A stretch of 64,000 bases of DNA from Brevibacillus laterosporus (GTDB lineage: Bacteria; Bacillota; Bacilli; Brevibacillales; Brevibacillaceae): positions 2,427,501 through 2,491,500 of the forward strand of contig CP033464.1 in the NCBI GenBank assembly GCA_007833815.1, in the 5' to 3' direction. Below the pieces are notes generated by a model that saw nothing but the letters and a program-made list of their open reading frames with translations, had not been told where the DNA came from and searched no databases. A program made the translations under genes and the position numbers. Positions 328 through 33,762 of this stretch are shown piece by piece (position 1 is the first letter of the stretch; each line of letters opens with the position of its first letter).

Positions 328-2040
328 GTGAAAATCCATATCGTACAAAAAGGGGACACCATGTGGAAAATCGCTAAGAAATATGGTGTCGACTTCCAAG
401 AGCTGTTGGAACTCAACAAACCAACAATAAAAAATCCGGATAAAATCATGCCTGGCATGAAAGTGAAAGTTCCAACTGGTACATCAAGGAGACCGGGAAT
501 GGAGCAGAGGCCCCCAAAAGAAAGACCGATGAAAGAGAGGCCTGTACCACCCGAAGTGCCAAGCAAGGAAAGACCTATACCTCCTGCTTATGAATCACCA
601 GAGATGCCAGAACCGGAAGAAAGAATGTCACCCGAGCAATCTCCGGTGACACCTGCACCACAACAAGAATGTCCTGCACCACAACAGGAATGTCCTGTAC
701 CACCAGAGATGCCAGTGCCGCCTAAGGAAAGACGCAGGCCATTACCGATCGCACCATTGCCGATTCCACCTTTAAAAGAGATGCCAAAACTTCGACCAAA
801 GCCTATTCCAGTACCAATTCCAGTGCCAATCCCAATCCCAGTACCAAAACCAAAACCGGTTCCAGTACCAAAACCAGCTCCCTTACCACACCCTATGCCG
901 TTACCACCAAAAAAAGAAATGCCAAGACCGATGCCAATGCCGCAACCACAGCCACAACGCCCTGTACCAGTGCCACAACCAGTACCAAGACCAATGCCCA
1001 TTCAGCCATCGCCGCCTATGTACCAAGTACCATTTTGTCCGCCACCATACGCTCCAATGTATCCACCAGCTGTAGCTCCTTGCCCACCTTGTGGCCATCC
1101 AGGTTATCCGGACTATTCTTCAACTACTTCCAGCTCGAATAGCTCAAATCAGGCAACAACCACGAGTCCTTCTAGCACCAGTTGCACGGATTATAACGCT
1201 CACTCACATTATCGACCAAAGGAGGCAGATAGCTACACTTGTCATGAAAGTAGCACTTCCCATGGTTATCAATGGGAAGAGTATGATTGTGCTCCAGAAC
1301 ATAAGCCTGCTTATCCTTATCCACCTATTTGTCCAGTGCCACAGCCATATTCTCAAATGCAACCATATCCGCATATGAAGCCATATCCGCATATGGAGCC
1401 ACACCCGCATATGAAGCCACACCCGCATATGAAGCCACACCCGTATATGAAGCCACATCCGCATATGGAGCCACACCCGTATATGAAGCCATATCCGCAT
1501 ATGGAGCCACACCCGCATATGGAGCCACACCCGTATATGAAGCCACACCCGTATATGAAGCCACATCCGCATATGGAGCCACACCCGCATAAGAAGCCAC
1601 ATCCGCATAAGAAGCCACACCCGCATAAGAAGCCACATCCGCATATGAAGCCACACCCGCATAAGAAGCCACACCCGTATATGAAGCCACACCCGCATAT
1701 GGAGCCACACCCGCATAAGAAGCCACACCCGCATATGGAGCCACACCCGCATAAGAAGCCACACCCGTATATGGAGCCACACCCGCATAAGAAGCCACAC
1801 CCGTATATGGAGCCACACCCACATATGAAGCCACACCCGCATAAGAAGCCACACCCGTATATGGAGCCACACCCGCATAAGAAGCCACACCCGCATAAGA
1901 AGCCATGCCCGGATCTCTCTTCCTCACATACGTATGGACAGCATCCCCATCACATGCCTATCAATCTCAATTTACCCCGTCCAGAAATGTGGCCTAAATG
2001 GGATAAAGGTCATGAAGAATCCTCATCGACGATCTGCTGA
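328..2040 (+). CDS. LysM-domain, Pro/His-rich repeat protein (SafA-like spore coat protein)
   Basis: The first ~50 residues are one LysM peptidoglycan-binding domain (HIVQKGDTMWKIAKKYGV) with the close spacing seen in SafA/SpoVID-type coat morphogenetic proteins. I chose the GTG at 328, because a GAGAGGAGAGG ribosome site lies directly before it and the protein then begins MKIHIVQKGD like its relatives; an in-frame ATG at 310 lies upstream of that site. Residues ~55-270 are Pro-rich with PxP and PVP dipeptide runs, followed by a Ser/Thr-rich linker and then about 30 hexapeptide repeats rich in His. The body is low complexity and carries no catalytic motif. No signal peptide is visible, consistent with assembly on the forespore from the mother cell. 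The following gene is a CotS-family coat protein, which supports a coat role. The coat assignment rests on LysM plus context; the repeat has no known function to me. Confidence 0.6.
   Translation: MKIHIVQKGDTMWKIAKKYGVDFQELLELNKPTIKNPDKIMPGMKVKVPTGTSRRPGMEQRPPKERPMKERPVPPEVPSKERPIPPAYESPEMPEPEERMSPEQSPVTPAPQQECPAPQQECPVPPEMPVPPKERRRPLPIAPLPIPPLKEMPKLRPKPIPVPIPVPIPIPVPKPKPVPVPKPAPLPHPMPLPPKKEMPRPMPMPQPQPQRPVPVPQPVPRPMPIQPSPPMYQVPFCPPPYAPMYPPAVAPCPPCGHPGYPDYSSTTSSSNSSNQATTTSPSSTSCTDYNAHSHYRPKEADSYTCHESSTSHGYQWEEYDCAPEHKPAYPYPPICPVPQPYSQMQPYPHMKPYPHMEPHPHMKPHPHMKPHPYMKPHPHMEPHPYMKPYPHMEPHPHMEPHPYMKPHPYMKPHPHMEPHPHKKPHPHKKPHPHKKPHPHMKPHPHKKPHPYMKPHPHMEPHPHKKPHPHMEPHPHKKPHPYMEPHPHKKPHPYMEPHPHMKPHPHKKPHPYMEPHPHKKPHPHKKPCPDLSSSHTYGQHPHHMPINLNLPRPEMWPKWDKGHEESSSTIC
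1360..1899 (+). repeat. about 30 tandem 18-bp units encoding (K/E)PHP(H/Y)(M/K)
   Basis: The 18-bp unit (typical form ATGAAGCCACACCCGCAT) is repeated about 30 times in frame inside the LysM protein. Variation is concentrated in three codons: AAG/GAG, CAT/TAT and ATG/AAG. Degenerate edges (QPYPHM at the start, KPCPDL after the end) flank near-identical central units, as expected from replication slippage or unequal crossover. It encodes roughly 50 histidines in 180 residues. It is a protein-coding minisatellite; there are no unique spacers, so it is not a CRISPR array. Confidence 0.95.
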
Positions 2041-28672: not shown

Positions 28673-30847
28673 ATGACAACGGGCATCGAGGAAATTTTAA
28701 GCAAAGCGAATAGCTATATGTCAGACGAGGACGTTACTATGCTGGAGCGTGCCTATGATTTAGCGCGCAAAGCTCACGAAGGCCAAGTGCGTAAATCCGG
28801 GGTGCCTTATATTATGCATCCGATCGCAGTGGCAGGCATTTTGACGGATATGCACATGGATGCTGTTACCGTCGCTGCCGGTTTCCTCCATGATGTTGTG
28901 GAAGATACCGAATTTACACTGGACGACTTGCGTAAAGATTTTGGTTCAGAGGTAGCTCATCTGGTAGACGGAGTCACAAAGCTGGAAAAAATTAAATACA
29001 AATCCAAAGAAGAGCAGTTAGCGGAGAATCATCGCAAAATGCTTGTGGCCATGGCACAAGATATTCGGGTCATTTTAATTAAATTGGCGGACCGTTTGCA
29101 TAATATGCGTACGTTACGTCATATGTCCGAAGAAAAGCAACGTGAAATTTCGGATGAAACGTTGGAAATCTTTGCACCGCTGGCTCATCGCCTAGGGATT
29201 GCCTTTGTAAAGTGGGAGCTAGAGGATACTGCTTTGCGCTATTTGAATCCACAGCAATATTATCGGATTGTAAACCTCATGCAGAAGAAACGGACAGAGC
29301 GCGAGGAGTACATTACGGAAGCGAAGGCAATGATTACTGATAAATTAGATGAGTTGCATATTGAAGCGGAGATTGCTGGCAGACCTAAGCATATCTATAG
29401 CATCTATAAAAAGATGGTGTCGCAGAATAAGCAGTTTAACGAAATCTATGACTTGCTAGCGCTACGCATCATTGTAAATGATATTCGTGATTGCTACGCT
29501 GTGCTCGGAATTGTACACACTTTGTGGAAACCGATGCCAGGGCGATTCAAAGATTATATTGCTATGCCAAAAGCTAACATGTATCAATCCTTGCATACAA
29601 CAGTAATCGGTCCTAAAGGTGAACCGTTGGAAGTGCAAATTCGGACATGGGAGATGCATCGAACAGCGGAGATTGGTATCGCTGCTCACTGGGCTTATAA
29701 AGAGGGCAAAGGGGAAGTCCAAGGTTCTTTTGAAGAGAAGATTGGTAATCTCCGAGAGATCATTCAAGGTGGACAAGAAGAGACACCGAATGCTCAGGAA
29801 TTTATGGAATCACTCAAGCAGGATTTGTTTTCCGATACGGTATTTATCTTTACACCAAAAGGTGACGTGGTGGAGCTTCCAAAAGGTTCGGTTCCTTTGG
29901 ATTTTGCTTATCGCATCCATTCAGCTGTCGGCAATCGGACAATCGGAGCGAAAGTGAACGGAAAAATCGTTCCGCTTGATTTTGCGTTGCGTACAGGTGA
30001 CATTATGGAAATTTTGACTTCCAAACATTCGTATGGTCCAAGTCAAGATTGGCTCAAAATAGCTAAGTCTGCTCATGCTCGCAATAAGATCAAGCAGTGG
30101 TTTAAGAAAGAAAAGCGGGAAGAAAACGTGGCTAAAGGGCTATCTATGATCGAAGCTGAGGTTAAAGCGCGTGGCTTTGATTTAAAAGAGACCATGACCA
30201 CGGAGAATGTAAAAGAAGCAGCAACTAAATTTAACTTCCAATCTGACGAGGATATGTACTCAGCAGTCGGATATGGCGGGCTCACCTCTGCACAAGTAGC
30301 GAATCGACTGACAGAAAAAATACGTAGAGATCGGGAAGAGCAGCAACAGCAAGCCATTCAGGAATTTAAATCACATGCACCCGCTCAGAAACAAACGAGA
30401 AGTGATACAGGCATCCGCGTAGAAGGCGTGGACAATTTGTTGACTCGTATTTCCCGATGTTGTTCGCCGGTTCCAGGGGATGACATTATTGGTTTCATCA
30501 CAAGAGGACGGGGAGTCTCCATTCATCGTAAGGATTGTCCGAATGTGACTCTAGAAGAGAATGATCGACTCATTCCTGTACAATGGGAAGGCGACCAGAA
30601 ACAAAACTACAATGTAGACATCGAAATTACCGGCCATGATCGCACAGGCTTGTTAAATGATGTGTTACATGTAGTGGGGGAGACGAAAACCAATATTGCA
30701 GCCGTTAGTGGCAAAGCAGATCGCAATCGCGTTGCTACTATTAACATGACGATCTGTATTAACAACATTGATCATCTACATCGCGTGGTAGAACGAATCA
30801 AACGCATTAAAGACATTTATTCTGTTCGCCGGATTTTGAACACCTAA
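28673..30847 (+). CDS. relA: bifunctional (p)ppGpp synthetase/hydrolase
   Basis: 724 residues with the full long-RSH layout: HD hydrolase domain (YIMHPIAVAG, HDVVEDTEFT; ~residues 20-200), synthetase domain (RPKHIYSIYKKM, YDLLALRIIV, YQSLHTTVIGP; ~240-350), TGS domain (VFIFTPKGDVVELPKGSVPLDFAY; ~390-455), helical and CC domain (~560-640, with RISRCCSPVPGD) and a C-terminal ACT domain (~650-724). It makes the alarmone from GTP or GDP plus ATP on starved ribosomes, and degrades it. GGAAGGG precedes the ATG. Confidence 0.97.
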   Translation: MTTGIEEILSKANSYMSDEDVTMLERAYDLARKAHEGQVRKSGVPYIMHPIAVAGILTDMHMDAVTVAAGFLHDVVEDTEFTLDDLRKDFGSEVAHLVDGVTKLEKIKYKSKEEQLAENHRKMLVAMAQDIRVILIKLADRLHNMRTLRHMSEEKQREISDETLEIFAPLAHRLGIAFVKWELEDTALRYLNPQQYYRIVNLMQKKRTEREEYITEAKAMITDKLDELHIEAEIAGRPKHIYSIYKKMVSQNKQFNEIYDLLALRIIVNDIRDCYAVLGIVHTLWKPMPGRFKDYIAMPKANMYQSLHTTVIGPKGEPLEVQIRTWEMHRTAEIGIAAHWAYKEGKGEVQGSFEEKIGNLREIIQGGQEETPNAQEFMESLKQDLFSDTVFIFTPKGDVVELPKGSVPLDFAYRIHSAVGNRTIGAKVNGKIVPLDFALRTGDIMEILTSKHSYGPSQDWLKIAKSAHARNKIKQWFKKEKREENVAKGLSMIEAEVKARGFDLKETMTTENVKEAATKFNFQSDEDMYSAVGYGGLTSAQVANRLTEKIRRDREEQQQQAIQEFKSHAPAQKQTRSDTGIRVEGVDNLLTRISRCCSPVPGDDIIGFITRGRGVSIHRKDCPNVTLEENDRLIPVQWEGDQKQNYNVDIEITGHDRTGLLNDVLHVVGETKTNIAAVSGKADRNRVATINMTICINNIDHLHRVVERIKRIKDIYSVRRILNT

Positions 30848-30861
30848 CATTTTTATGTGTC

Positions 30862-30897
30862 AGACAGTGATTCCTTGGGAACACTGTCTTTTCTTTG
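30862..30897 (+). terminator. terminator after relA
   Basis: AGACAGTG and CACTGTCT form an 8-bp stem around a short loop, followed by TTTCTTTG. It lies directly before the right boundary of the putative IS200/IS605 relic. Confidence 0.8.
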
Positions 30898-30915
30898 ATA
30901 ACCATGAAACTTGAC

Positions 30916-31080
30916 TTGAACCTCTCATGGCTAAAGCCACGAGATTCCTGCGCTATCACATCCAACGAAGTGAGAATTAGCAGGCTATCCCCGTAGTCCC
31001 TACGGTTATTGAAAAAAAGTGTACGTTGGACTCTTCTCTCTGACCTACTGCTTGGTTTTCGCTTTTCGGTCAGAGAGGAC
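30916..31080 (-). ncRNA. candidate TnpB-type guide RNA (reRNA/omega RNA) scaffold
   Basis: On the minus strand this stretch folds into: a 10-bp stem (CTCTCTGACC, 31036-31045, with GGTCAGAGAG, 31068-31077); a CCGTAG/CTACGG hairpin (30991-31005); a CCTGC/GCAGG stem (30947-30951 with 30980-30984) holding TCAC/GTGA; and the terminal CTCGTGGCT hairpin ending GGTTCAA. CGTTGGA (31024-31030) can pair with TCCAACG (30961-30967) in the loop of the second stem, a pseudoknot, as TnpB RNAs have. The bases after GGTTCAA (30915 downwards) would be the guide. Whether it is transcribed is unknown. Confidence 0.5.
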
Positions 31081-31287
31081 GAAGGTGCTTGAATGTTTTA
31101 CGCCACAAAGCATTCCTTATGGCAACCCCATACATTCAGTTTTCAATGAGCAATCTATACAAGATTAGTATACCTGTTCTTGTTAGTTATTCAAAGAAGT
31201 AGTCGGACAAGTAACGTGTCAGAAGACACGCTTTGTCCGAAGCCGATTCACCTCATGATTAAAATCACGAGTGTTCTCGGCTAATTC
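30916..31287 (-). mobile_element. putative IS200/IS605-derived relic without transposase (PATE/MITE-like)
   Basis: A 372-base non-coding island between relA and dtd on the minus strand. Near each end sits a related imperfect palindrome: CTCATGGCTAAAGCCACGAG (30924-30943) and CTCATGATTAAAATCACGAG (31252-31271), plus-strand reading. They differ by compensatory changes yet keep the same A-C mismatch, as expected of TnpA-recognised hairpins. On the minus strand the right end reads GAATCTCGTGGCTTTAGCC and finishes GAGAGGTTCAA, which agrees with my recollection of TnpB right-end/guide-RNA 3' ends such as ISDra2. The opposite boundary is preceded by TTTAT (minus strand, 31292-31288), a plausible insertion/TAM-type pentamer. 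No tnpA or intact tnpB remains. Boundaries are inferred. Confidence 0.6.
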
Positions 31288-31324
31288 ATAAAATCTAATA
31301 GAGATGGAACAGGAGTGGTAAGAA

Positions 31325-31762
31325 GTGCGAGTCGTTGTACAAAAGGCAAAAGCATCAAGCGTTTCTGTGAACGGAGATGTGGTAGGACAGATTGAGCGTG
31401 GGTTGGTTTTATTAGTCGGTATTACGCATGAGGATACGATGAAAGATGTAGAATTTGTAGCAGACAAAGTAGCAAATTTGCGGATTTTTGAAGACGAGGA
31501 AGGAAAAATGAATTACTCTGTGAAAGATACAGGTGGTCAAATTTTATCTATTTCCCAATTTACCCTATACGGAGATTGCCGTAAAGGTCGACGTCCTAAC
31601 TTTATGTCGGCTGCTCGTCCAGAGGTTGCTGAGCCTTTGTATGATCAATTTAATGAGGTATTGCGGAGTAAAGGGTTACATGTAGAGACGGGGCGTTTTG
31701 GGGCAATGATGGATGTGCAGATATATAACCATGGACCTGTAACGTTGATTGTTGAAAGCTAA
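31325..31762 (+). CDS. dtd: D-aminoacyl-tRNA deacylase
   Basis: 145 residues, full length. [23 protein letters not shown], the [17 protein letters not shown] active-site segment and the GPVT motif near the C terminus ([11 protein letters not shown]) are all present. It removes D-amino acids and glycine mischarged on tRNA. GTG start at 31325 with AGGAGTGG upstream. In B. subtilis it follows relA directly; here the relic above separates them. Confidence 0.96.
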
Positions 31763-31811
31763 TGGTAGGTGAAACAAAGGTCTTCGAGAACTCAAACTAA
31801 CTAAACGTAAT

Positions 31812-31850
31812 AAAAAAGCAGCTAGTCCATTGTGGACCAGCTGCTTTTTT
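31812..31850. terminator. bidirectional terminator between dtd and the amidase gene
   Basis: AAAAAAGCAGCTAGTCCA-TTG-TGGACCAGCTGCTTTTTT: long near-perfect stem with A run before and T run after, serving convergent genes. Confidence 0.92.
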
Positions 31851-31860
31851 GTAGTAACCT

Positions 31861-33762
31861 CTAGTTCGGATAAACCTGGAAGTAACGCAATATGCCTCGG
31901 AATAAACCTTCTGCCGCATTGTGTTGATGTTGCTCGTCTCGCAGGTTAGCTTCTTCTTGTGGGTTGGTCATAAAGCCGATTTCAGCAAGAATCGCTGGCT
32001 TTGGATTTTCACGAATGACATGGAAATCACCAAATCTGGACGTTAAATCCTTATATTGAGTGGTAGCAACAATCTCTCTTTGCGTCAGTTCGGCTAATTC
32101 CATTGATTTGCCTTTATGGTAGTAGAACATGATGGTACCATTTGTTGCTGCGTTTGGATGCGTATTGTGATGGACACTGACAAACATGTCTGCATTGTTT
32201 TGCACAGCCACTTGAACACGTTGTTCCAATGTAAGAGTAGTATCATCAGCACGAGTCATGATGACGCGGGCTCCAGACGCCTCCAGACGTTGTTTCAGCT
32301 TCAGAGCTACCTGAAGGTTAATCTCTTTTTCAAATGTCTTGTAACTGGTACCCACGGCACCACTATCTGTCCCACCGTGTCCAGGATCAATTACAATTAA
32401 TTTACCTCTCGCTTCATTTCCACTTAAGGCAGGTAGGTTGTTTAGATCTGTTGATTCTTTTTGTACAACCCAGCTTGCAATATAGGCCGTTGTGTTATCT
32501 TTCAGGCGAATTTGATACCATTCACCTTCTGTTTTTATAACGGAATAGCTTTCACCTGGTTGTACAGTACCTACTGGCTCGTATTCGGTGCCTGGACCAG
32601 AACGAACGTTTGTACTTTCATTTAATACTTTGATTTTCATTTCTGTGTTATTACTAGGTACTGAGGGCTGAAGGTTATTTTGATTCTTATGTTCATTTGG
32701 GTCAACTACTCCAAGCGTAGGAGGGGTAACTGTTGATTTGGTAACCAACCAGCTAGCTATCCAGCCTGTTTTACCATCCGGTGTTTTTACTTGAAACCAG
32801 TCGTTGCTTTGGGATAATACAGGTAGTACATTTCCATTATTCACTTGGGTGATGACCTGGCTTGTGGTGTTCGCTTGACTCCGTATGTTTACATTATTTC
32901 CAGTTACCTTCACCGTAGTGCTTGATGAAGCAGGATTTGGTTGTGTCGGAGGCAGTGTTGTCTGATCAGACGGAGGAGCTCCTGGTTTTGAGATCCAAGC
33001 TGTTGTGCCATTATACAAAATTTGATCCCATCCATTTGACTCCGAATATTTACTCACTTGATCGCCTGCGCTTAACTGCCCGATAATCACAGCTGCGACA
33101 TTGGGCTCTGCATACACATTGGTAACGGCGGAAATTTTAATGCTACTGTTAGACGGAGGTTGCACAGTAGGTTCCACAGGTGGCAACACATCAGCGGGTG
33201 TGGGCTGATTGTTCTGATCCGCTGTAGGATTTGTTGGTGATGGTGCCCCTGGTAGCGGTGCTGACGTAGTGGGTGGTGTAGCATGTTGTACAAAATTAGC
33301 GTTAACCCAGCCTGTAGTTTTGTCAGACAATTGAATTTGTGCCCATACGCCTTCTTTTTTAATCATTTTGTAGCTTTTGGTCTTGTCCATTATCTGAACG
33401 ATTTGAGCGTCTGGTTTGGGTTCTGTCCGTACGTTTAGCATATCAACTGTGCTTTTTAAATAAATAACCTTTGGTGGCTGAGGAGGTGCTTTAATCTCCT
33501 GAAGGTATGTATTTAATCCCCAGCCTTGTTTGCCATTAGGAAGTTTTACCTGTATCCATTTATCTTTTTTTGATAGAACGGTTAGTTTTGTTGACTTAGG
33601 TACGGAACTTACAAGTTGATAGTTGGTTCCTGGACCAGAGCGAATGTTTAAAATATCGGCTGTTACCTGCACCTGGTTCGCTGCCCAGGCCATCTGAAGG
33701 GGCGCAACCAAGCTTGTGAGGCATGTTGCAAGCCCGATGATCATTTTCTTGCGAGAAAACAC
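31861..33762 (-). CDS. N-acetylmuramoyl-L-alanine amidase with five SH3b domains (YrvJ-like)
   Basis: 633 residues. Signal peptide (MIIGLATCLTSLVAPLQMAWA), then five bacterial SH3 domains, each opening with a (L)NIRSGPGTxY-type repeat at ~35, 110, 210, 290 and 380, separated by Pro/Thr/Gln-rich linkers, and an Amidase_3 zinc domain (~455-630) with VIDPGHGGTDSGAVG, the zinc ligand Glu in EKEINL, SVHHNTH and the catalytic Glu in ILAEIGFMTN. It cleaves the amide bond between MurNAc and L-Ala in peptidoglycan. The same position, next to dtd and hisS, is held by yrvJ in B. subtilis. Start GTG at 33762 with GAAAGGATGG upstream. Confidence 0.92.
   Translation of the reverse strand: MFSRKKMIIGLATCLTSLVAPLQMAWAANQVQVTADILNIRSGPGTNYQLVSSVPKSTKLTVLSKKDKWIQVKLPNGKQGWGLNTYLQEIKAPPQPPKVIYLKSTVDMLNVRTEPKPDAQIVQIMDKTKSYKMIKKEGVWAQIQLSDKTTGWVNANFVQHATPPTTSAPLPGAPSPTNPTADQNNQPTPADVLPPVEPTVQPPSNSSIKISAVTNVYAEPNVAAVIIGQLSAGDQVSKYSESNGWDQILYNGTTAWISKPGAPPSDQTTLPPTQPNPASSSTTVKVTGNNVNIRSQANTTSQVITQVNNGNVLPVLSQSNDWFQVKTPDGKTGWIASWLVTKSTVTPPTLGVVDPNEHKNQNNLQPSVPSNNTEMKIKVLNESTNVRSGPGTEYEPVGTVQPGESYSVIKTEGEWYQIRLKDNTTAYIASWVVQKESTDLNNLPALSGNEARGKLIVIDPGHGGTDSGAVGTSYKTFEKEINLQVALKLKQRLEASGARVIMTRADDTTLTLEQRVQVAVQNNADMFVSVHHNTHPNAATNGTIMFYYHKGKSMELAELTQREIVATTQYKDLTSRFGDFHVIRENPKPAILAEIGFMTNPQEEANLRDEQHQHNAAEGLFRGILRYFQVYPN

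Follow-up and report, generated by a model that had tools for sequence, protein, structure and literature searches.

A gene-less IS200/IS605-type element of Brevibacillus laterosporus that probably supplies a stand-alone TnpB guide RNA

Introduction

The window analysed here is a stretch of 64,000 nucleotides of Brevibacillus laterosporus DNA (contig CP033464.1, positions 2,427,501 to 2,491,500). On the 3' side of relA its minus strand reads GAATCTCGTGGCTTTAGCC...GAGAGGTTCAA, followed by GTCAAGTTTCATGGTT at 30915-30900, an arrangement that recalls the right end of a TnpB-encoding transposon and its adjoining guide. An initial annotation of the locus proposed a stand-alone TnpB-type guide RNA, available in trans to a TnpB or to a TnpB-derived repressor elsewhere in the genome. 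What, then, is this sequence, how did it come to lie beside relA, and which protein would it serve?

Two known systems bear on the question. The ωRNAs (reRNAs) of TnpB, as described for ISDra2 and AmaTnpB, originate from the right end of the transposon, take their 3' guide from the flanking DNA and have a TAM that equals the insertion target (PMC8612924). The PATEs of the IS200/IS605 family possess near-terminal palindromes, have no transposase gene and are moved in trans (PMC3119063, PMC7290912).

Results

A mobile element without genes between relA and dtd

The guide-like sequence borders a larger unit, whose outline is given below. The neighbouring 724-aa and 145-aa frames, which we take to be relA and a dtd-like gene, were named by eye.

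28673..30847, plus strand: relA, left neighbour, open frame of 724 aa
30900..30915, minus strand: flanking 16 nt, the would-be guide, different in each of 16 copies
30916..31292, minus strand: whole element, TTTAT...GGTTCAA, 377 bp, with sharp-ended copies and an empty site in three congeners
31202..31292, minus strand: left end common to a resident tnpA-tnpB IS, with a near-terminal hairpin at 31241-31282
31288..31292, minus strand: TTTAT, the left-end target/TAM, seen in 16 of 19 loci examined and likewise in the resident IS
31325..31762, plus strand: dtd-like gene, right neighbour, open frame of 145 aa

The right end of the element lies 68 bases past the relA stop at 30847. A search of the genome with 30900-31080 gave 34 matches, among them 19 loci that are near-complete to GGTTCAA at 88-100% identity; one further place matches the same stretch at 78%, and L020, which has the right part only, was left out of the copy counts. 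Sixteen of the 19 loci are two-ended (L006, L011 and L019 have no recognisable left end and were excluded), run from TTTAT to GGTTCAA over 373-378 bp and continue into 16 different right flanks. Homology between copies stops exactly after GGTTCAA, in agreement with the guide start at 30915 given in the initial annotation, and TTTAT stands at the opposite end. Five congeneric genomes were considered, and in the three aligned there (G002, G004 and G005) relA and dtd are adjacent without the element; the junction is diverged in all three, with at most about 25 bases where the element would be. Sharp ends, unrelated flanks and empty sites together show that 30916-31292 is a mobile element and that the "guide" is an insertion flank. 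We conclude that it is a gene-less IS200/IS605-type element that was formerly mobile. The interval originally delimited, 30900..31080, therefore marks a real feature but covers its 3' half only, and what was taken for a single guide locus is stand-alone, as proposed, but is one among about 20 mobile copies, the guide of each being the DNA at its insertion site.

The element resembles PATEs in its IS605-type near-terminal palindromes and in the absence of a transposase gene: the ends are kin to those of an IS605-type element, 377 bp is too short for a transposase, and TTTAT in 16 copies indicates a short target, left unduplicated, with insertion on its 3' side. Around the 19 element loci of the genome the only TnpA/TnpB match comes from a neighbouring IS at L017. 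Columns that differ among the genome's copies amount to 3/87 in the right-end core described below, 9/158 in the 5' part and 22/92 in the left end, part of the last figure being a single block; the copies are nearly identical, so that constraint is hard to separate from recent spread. One locus, L050 (G000:C4:5383500-5386500), has both ends but lacks most of the RNA middle, the break lying at the short repeat CTTCGT.

A resident IS with the same ends and the same right-end fold

Twelve matches to PF07282, the TnpB family, and eight to the Y1 transposase family were counted in the genome. In one resident IS (L022, about C4:507050-508847) both tnpA and tnpB are open, and the proteins match Y1_Tnp and three TnpB domains. 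Its left end likewise starts TTTATGAATTAGC and agrees with that of the element at 94.5% over 91 bp (92 bp at 94.6% in another comparison); the last 34 bp agree at 94.1%. The IS has a core of its own, located after the tnpB stop and ahead of the right end, which folds like the last 94 nt of the element, with 65/94 positions identical. Because the resident IS has this fold, a TnpB with a matching right-end scaffold exists in the genome. The proposal of a stand-alone TnpB-type guide RNA is thus supported: the element has the anatomy of a right-end guide RNA, there is no tnpB inside it, and a TnpB right end of the same fold is found elsewhere in the genome.

The second partner proposed initially, a TnpB-derived repressor, fares less well. 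A TldR-like protein encoded elsewhere in the genome would need a stand-alone guide RNA of this kind; however, 16 copies with 16 unrelated flanks are unlike a chosen target, and the genome's full-length TnpBs presumably retain their RuvC-like motifs (read by eye). Since these proteins look like nucleases, a repressor is unnecessary as a partner, and we regard a regulatory role as very improbable.

A further trace of TnpB was noted at L031 (G000:C4:4959525-4962728), where a 434-aa frame joins an N-terminal half that is radical-SAM-like by eye to the last part of a TnpB; copy L017 adjoins it, and the frame probably arose by fusion of an IS remnant with a host gene.

The right end forms an ωRNA-like core

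30916..31009, minus strand: ωRNA-like core with P1 at 30991-31005, P2 at 30947-30951/30980-30984, P3 at about 30956-30973, terminal hairpin at 30923-30944 and the GGTTCAA end, folding as TnpB right ends do
30961..31030, minus strand: possible pseudoknot, 31024-31030 with 30961-30967, complementary and without clear covariation

The terminal hairpin and the GGTTCAA end are present on the minus strand just as first read. None of 200 dinucleotide shuffles folds as well as the minus strand of 30900-31080 (z -3.64), and the same is true of the last 100-nt part of the element (z -3.84). An alignment of 13 sequences, five from elements and eight from TnpB right ends, yields three helices with 96.1% of cells paired, so that the right-end scaffold is common to the element and to TnpB elements. 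Both sides have changed in 13 of the 18 pairs and covariation is 0.611 versus 0.203 in shuffles; of five measures compared with 500 shuffles, four were reached by none, and the other, a further pair-type count, was reached by 174. The flank as guide and the identity of TAM and target also correspond to TnpB ωRNAs, the correspondence being one of position only. The 7-bp pseudoknot suggested at the outset shows exact complementarity in the window (TCCAACG/CGTTGGA), and five to seven of its seven pairs are possible in six of the six to seven aligned rows that have both sides; without a clear double change it is weakly supported, and we retain it as possible.

A search of Rfam with 29000-33000 returned three sub-threshold matches only, one of them over the element. 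Ref70, an Enterococcus sRNA (RF02841), matches weakly over its full length at 30893-31011 on the minus strand; at 24 bits and E 0.5 the score is far under the gathering score of 115 and gives no ground for placing the element in this family.

A conserved RNA module stands in the place of tnpA and tnpB

31036..31077, minus strand: hairpin C, with the conserved loop GCGAAAACCAAGC at 31050-31062, covarying (its helix is helix 3 in the five-relative set)
31090..31138, minus strand: 5' RNA module, helix A at 31132-31138/31090-31096 and helix B at 31115-31123/31102-31110, covarying and described by models R1 and R2
31138..31151, minus strand: boxA-like leader GCTCATTGAAAACT, family consensus GYTCTTTGAWAACT, which is the genome's pre-23S spacer sequence
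31167..31194, minus strand: promoter-like site identified by eye, TTGAAT at 31189-31194, 16 bp, TATACT at 31167-31172

The space that tnpA and tnpB would fill is taken by a promoter-like site and, ahead of the core, by some 130 nt of RNA. Across five diverged relatives, 10 of the 26 pairs of this 5' RNA have changed on both sides, covariation is 0.515 versus 0.251 when shuffled, and a further pair-type count was reached by 21 of 500 shuffles. Model R1, built from these five relatives and applied to 40 genomes of the family, matches five of them, at 21 places in the present genome, 16 in G031 (15 element copies and one fragment) and one each in G003, G018 and G019; neither G031 nor G003 had been used in building it. 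Model R2, which comprises 59 positions of helices A and B and seven sequences including G031 and G003, matches 51/399 Bacilli genomes in 31/145 genera. A sequence pattern of the module, for which we estimate a chance expectation of about 0.1 from equal base frequencies, occurs in at least 119 stretches in named genomes, and the 80 matches listed are all Bacillota by title, from Bacilli and Clostridia.

The pattern fixes some positions, and covariation was counted on the remaining ones. Among the matches listed, taken together with three viral ones, 58 distinct modules have helix A paired in 57-58 cases at each of seven positions, with all 58 paired at the four pattern-free positions of the 5' side, and helix B paired in 55-58 cases at eight positions, the ninth pair forming in 4/58; shuffled means at the most variable positions are 27 to 40 of 58. 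A hexamer with five to six matches to TATAAT lies within 45 bases ahead of the module in 49 of 57 of the listed cases versus 23 of 57 when shuffled, and GAAAACCAAGC is found within 200 nt of 31 of the 57 distinct modules among the matches listed. With Rfam 15, no family was found over the 5' module in 20 relative loci at E values up to 1.

These results bear on the simplest alternative, that the element is a plain PATE or MITE in which the hairpin ends alone matter for TnpA and the middle is passive, its ωRNA likeness left over from the parent IS. The ends are indeed common to the resident IS, PATEs are described as common passive elements (PMC3119063), and L050 keeps both ends without most of the middle. 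Yet what fills the middle is no remnant of tnpB but a distinct, covarying RNA, found again in many Bacillota where the ends differ, and the pairing of the core has been maintained through double changes. We consider a purely passive middle unlikely.

The loop of hairpin C is found in other settings too. At L061/L076 (G031:C1:4010262-4010355) hairpin C with its GCGAAAACCAAGC loop stands alone beside a gene, the rest of the element being absent. In L079 and other G031 elements the motif sits at the apex of hairpin B and not of hairpin C, so that it seems to move within the RNA; the loop may be a contact site for protein or RNA.

The leader resembles the boxA of the rRNA spacer

The core of boxA is GCUCUUU. 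The leader in the window departs from GTTCTTTGAAAACT at 2 of 14 positions. In the 57 modules among the matches listed for which the upstream sequence was long enough, the five bases before the module pattern are G in 56, T/C in 50, T/A in 57, C in 57 and T in 44, which gives the family consensus. An exact TTCWTTGAAAACT occurs once in the genome, downstream of a 5S gene and 142 nt ahead of a 23S rRNA gene, within GTTCTTTGAAAACTGGATAATG, and a 23S search put the single TTCTTTGAAAACT ahead of a 23S gene. When the 13-base pattern is reversed it occurs four times by chance in the genome, in which rRNA stretches are partly masked, so it is the location and not the count that is telling. A stricter boxA pattern has 19 sites in the whole genome, all at element copies and none in rRNA; a 16S 3'-end pattern has no match in the genome, whose rRNA stretches are partly N. 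By sequence likeness and location the leader is a candidate boxA. Binding of boxA by NusB-uS10 serves rRNA antitermination, and the complex also secures the folding and maturation of rRNA, according to a review (PMC10931766).

Bacillaceae-1 RNA (RF01690) was detected at 53 bits each in L113, an element of G078 (1395-1461, minus strand), and in L285 (1364-1429, minus strand). In L113 it lies just 3' of the module, and in the rRNA spacer of the B. laterosporus genome it is preceded by the boxA-like sequence and followed by the 23S gene; its occurrence in both places is a second tie of the elements to rRNA leaders.

The module heads several TnpB-type scaffolds

A role for the module within tnpB-bearing IS was considered and set aside: with tblastn queries comprising 18 TnpB and three TnpA proteins only, no match encloses the module in the 49 and 83 loci checked. 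The first set has a TnpB/TnpA-like match in 1/49 loci, from the IS beside copy L017, and the set of named and viral sequences (80 matches listed plus three viral) has one in 2/83, L224 and L236. BLAST sorts the 3' ends of 85 modules, taken as the parts that follow them, into seven groups of 62, 8, 6, 3, 2, 2 and 2 members. A hairpin with a right-end-like motif follows the module in 48 of 63 cases versus 3 of 62 control stretches, and several modules without that motif carry another type of end, TTGAC.

The right-end scaffolds that follow the module in G031 and G003 are different ones. Thirteen elements were compared with 33 TnpB loci, namely 29 of 103 matches plus four of the present genome (one locus of the 30 taken, L160, was left out). 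The G003 element resembles a TnpB locus of its own genome both near the tnpB 3' end (95.3% over 127 nt) and in the left end (92.2% over 64 bp), and for the G299 element the figures are 88.7% over 106 nt and 94.7% over 38 bp; the G018 element reaches just 73.4% over 109 nt and 84.2% over 38 bp with its own TnpB locus, and in the other genomes no clear own TnpB partner was present among the loci compared (29 of the 103 matches). The ends and right-end RNAs that are held in common indicate that the module replaces genes in at least three IS subgroups, those of G000 (the present genome), G003 and G299. Judged by sequence, the 5' module is portable, heading other TnpB-type scaffolds elsewhere.

Could the module then have a job of its own, unrelated to TnpB, perhaps as a small RNA or as a binding site for Nus factors, with the IS605-type elements serving only as its vehicle? 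The likeness of its leader to the pre-23S spacer, the Bacillaceae-1 RNA that L113 holds as the genome's rRNA spacer does, and its junction with several 3' scaffolds would fit. The right-end-like hairpin that follows it, in contrast, is a steady association, and we think an independent function highly unlikely.

Discussion

The explanation that we favour, and hold to be probable, is that 30916-31292 is a PATE-like, non-autonomous miniature of the IS200/IS605 family, with a cassette that makes a stand-alone TnpB guide RNA (ωRNA/reRNA) in the place of tnpA-tnpB. Its ends and its right-end fold are common to the resident tnpA-tnpB IS, and its RNA is conserved and covarying. Counting against this explanation, the core is merely 65/94 identical to that of the likeliest partner TnpB.

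A possible course of events is as follows. The resident TnpA would excise the element and insert it beside TTTAT, acting in trans through the common ends. Transcription from the element's own promoter would begin at about 31160 and continue past the right end, giving an RNA whose last bases are flank sequence, and the boxA-like leader might recruit NusB-S10 and so help the polymerase to pass the hairpins and reach the flanking guide. The resident TnpB could then bind the core and cut the rejoined TTTAT+guide site after excision, whereupon repair would restore the element, whose retention would be secured by a nuclease encoded elsewhere. Cutting of the rejoined target-flank site by TnpB after excision is the proposal made for ISDra2 (PMC8612924). 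Some TnpBs are known to process their RNA by trimming its 5' part (PMC10278001), so the 5' module may be either removed or kept.

The element shares with the ωRNAs of ISDra2 and AmaTnpB the right-end position, the flank as 3' guide and the TAM that equals the target. It differs from ISDra2, whose ωRNA has a 5' part matching the tnpB 3' end, in having a non-coding module at that place and no tnpB upstream. It differs from PATEs in its promoter-like site and in a conserved structured RNA that ends in an ωRNA-like core; the passages of PMC3119063 and PMC7290912 consulted describe no such RNA. The candidate RNA module is what we call new, and it is the most unusual part of the element; PATEs and TnpB ωRNAs are already known. 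Guide RNAs apart from their nuclease gene are reportedly known for IscB, the stand-alone ωRNAs of Altae-Tran et al. 2021, and gene-less IS605 elements, PATEs beside TnpB elements in Geobacillus, are said to have been described by Meers et al. 2023. Literature searches, which covered mostly TnpB and IscB through titles and the starts of abstracts, found nothing on the module or on stand-alone ωRNA miniatures, which is weak evidence of absence; term searches of PMC12558985 gave no match.

We give about even chances to a broader proposition, that there is in Bacilli and Clostridia a class of gene-less transposons in which stand-alone ωRNAs are expressed by means of a boxA-led 5' module, a single resident TnpB thereby protecting many parasitic elements in trans, and in which the module has been joined to several TnpB scaffolds, in parallel with the split between guide and nuclease in CRISPR. 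If this is true, TnpB guards more than its own IS, and gene-less elements bring their guides and borrow the nuclease as parasites of a parasite. There would also be a testable path from cis-acting ωRNA to separate guide loci, and naturally occurring guide RNAs that have a conserved 5' module and are driven by their own promoter. The module itself is a candidate for a new class of RNA, tied by its rRNA-like leader to the Nus machinery.

Related sequences occur on plasmids and in viral records. Among 380 plasmid records matched, 377 are from Enterococcus, in which the matches listed cover 56 bp of the left end only (for example NZ_CP040905.1, 101834-101890); the same 56 bp of the left end occur in two Listeria phage records. 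The Enterococcus left-end matches point, at the level of sequence, to a related IS605-type family in that genus. A full element copy is present at 97.4% on a plasmid of Brevibacillus halotolerans (CP139434.1), where no feature is annotated, and a partial copy on a plasmid of Bacillus arachidis. Near-identical element copies with other flanks are also found in L282 and L284, IMG/VR contigs (UViG 2911860687) that are viral or proviral.
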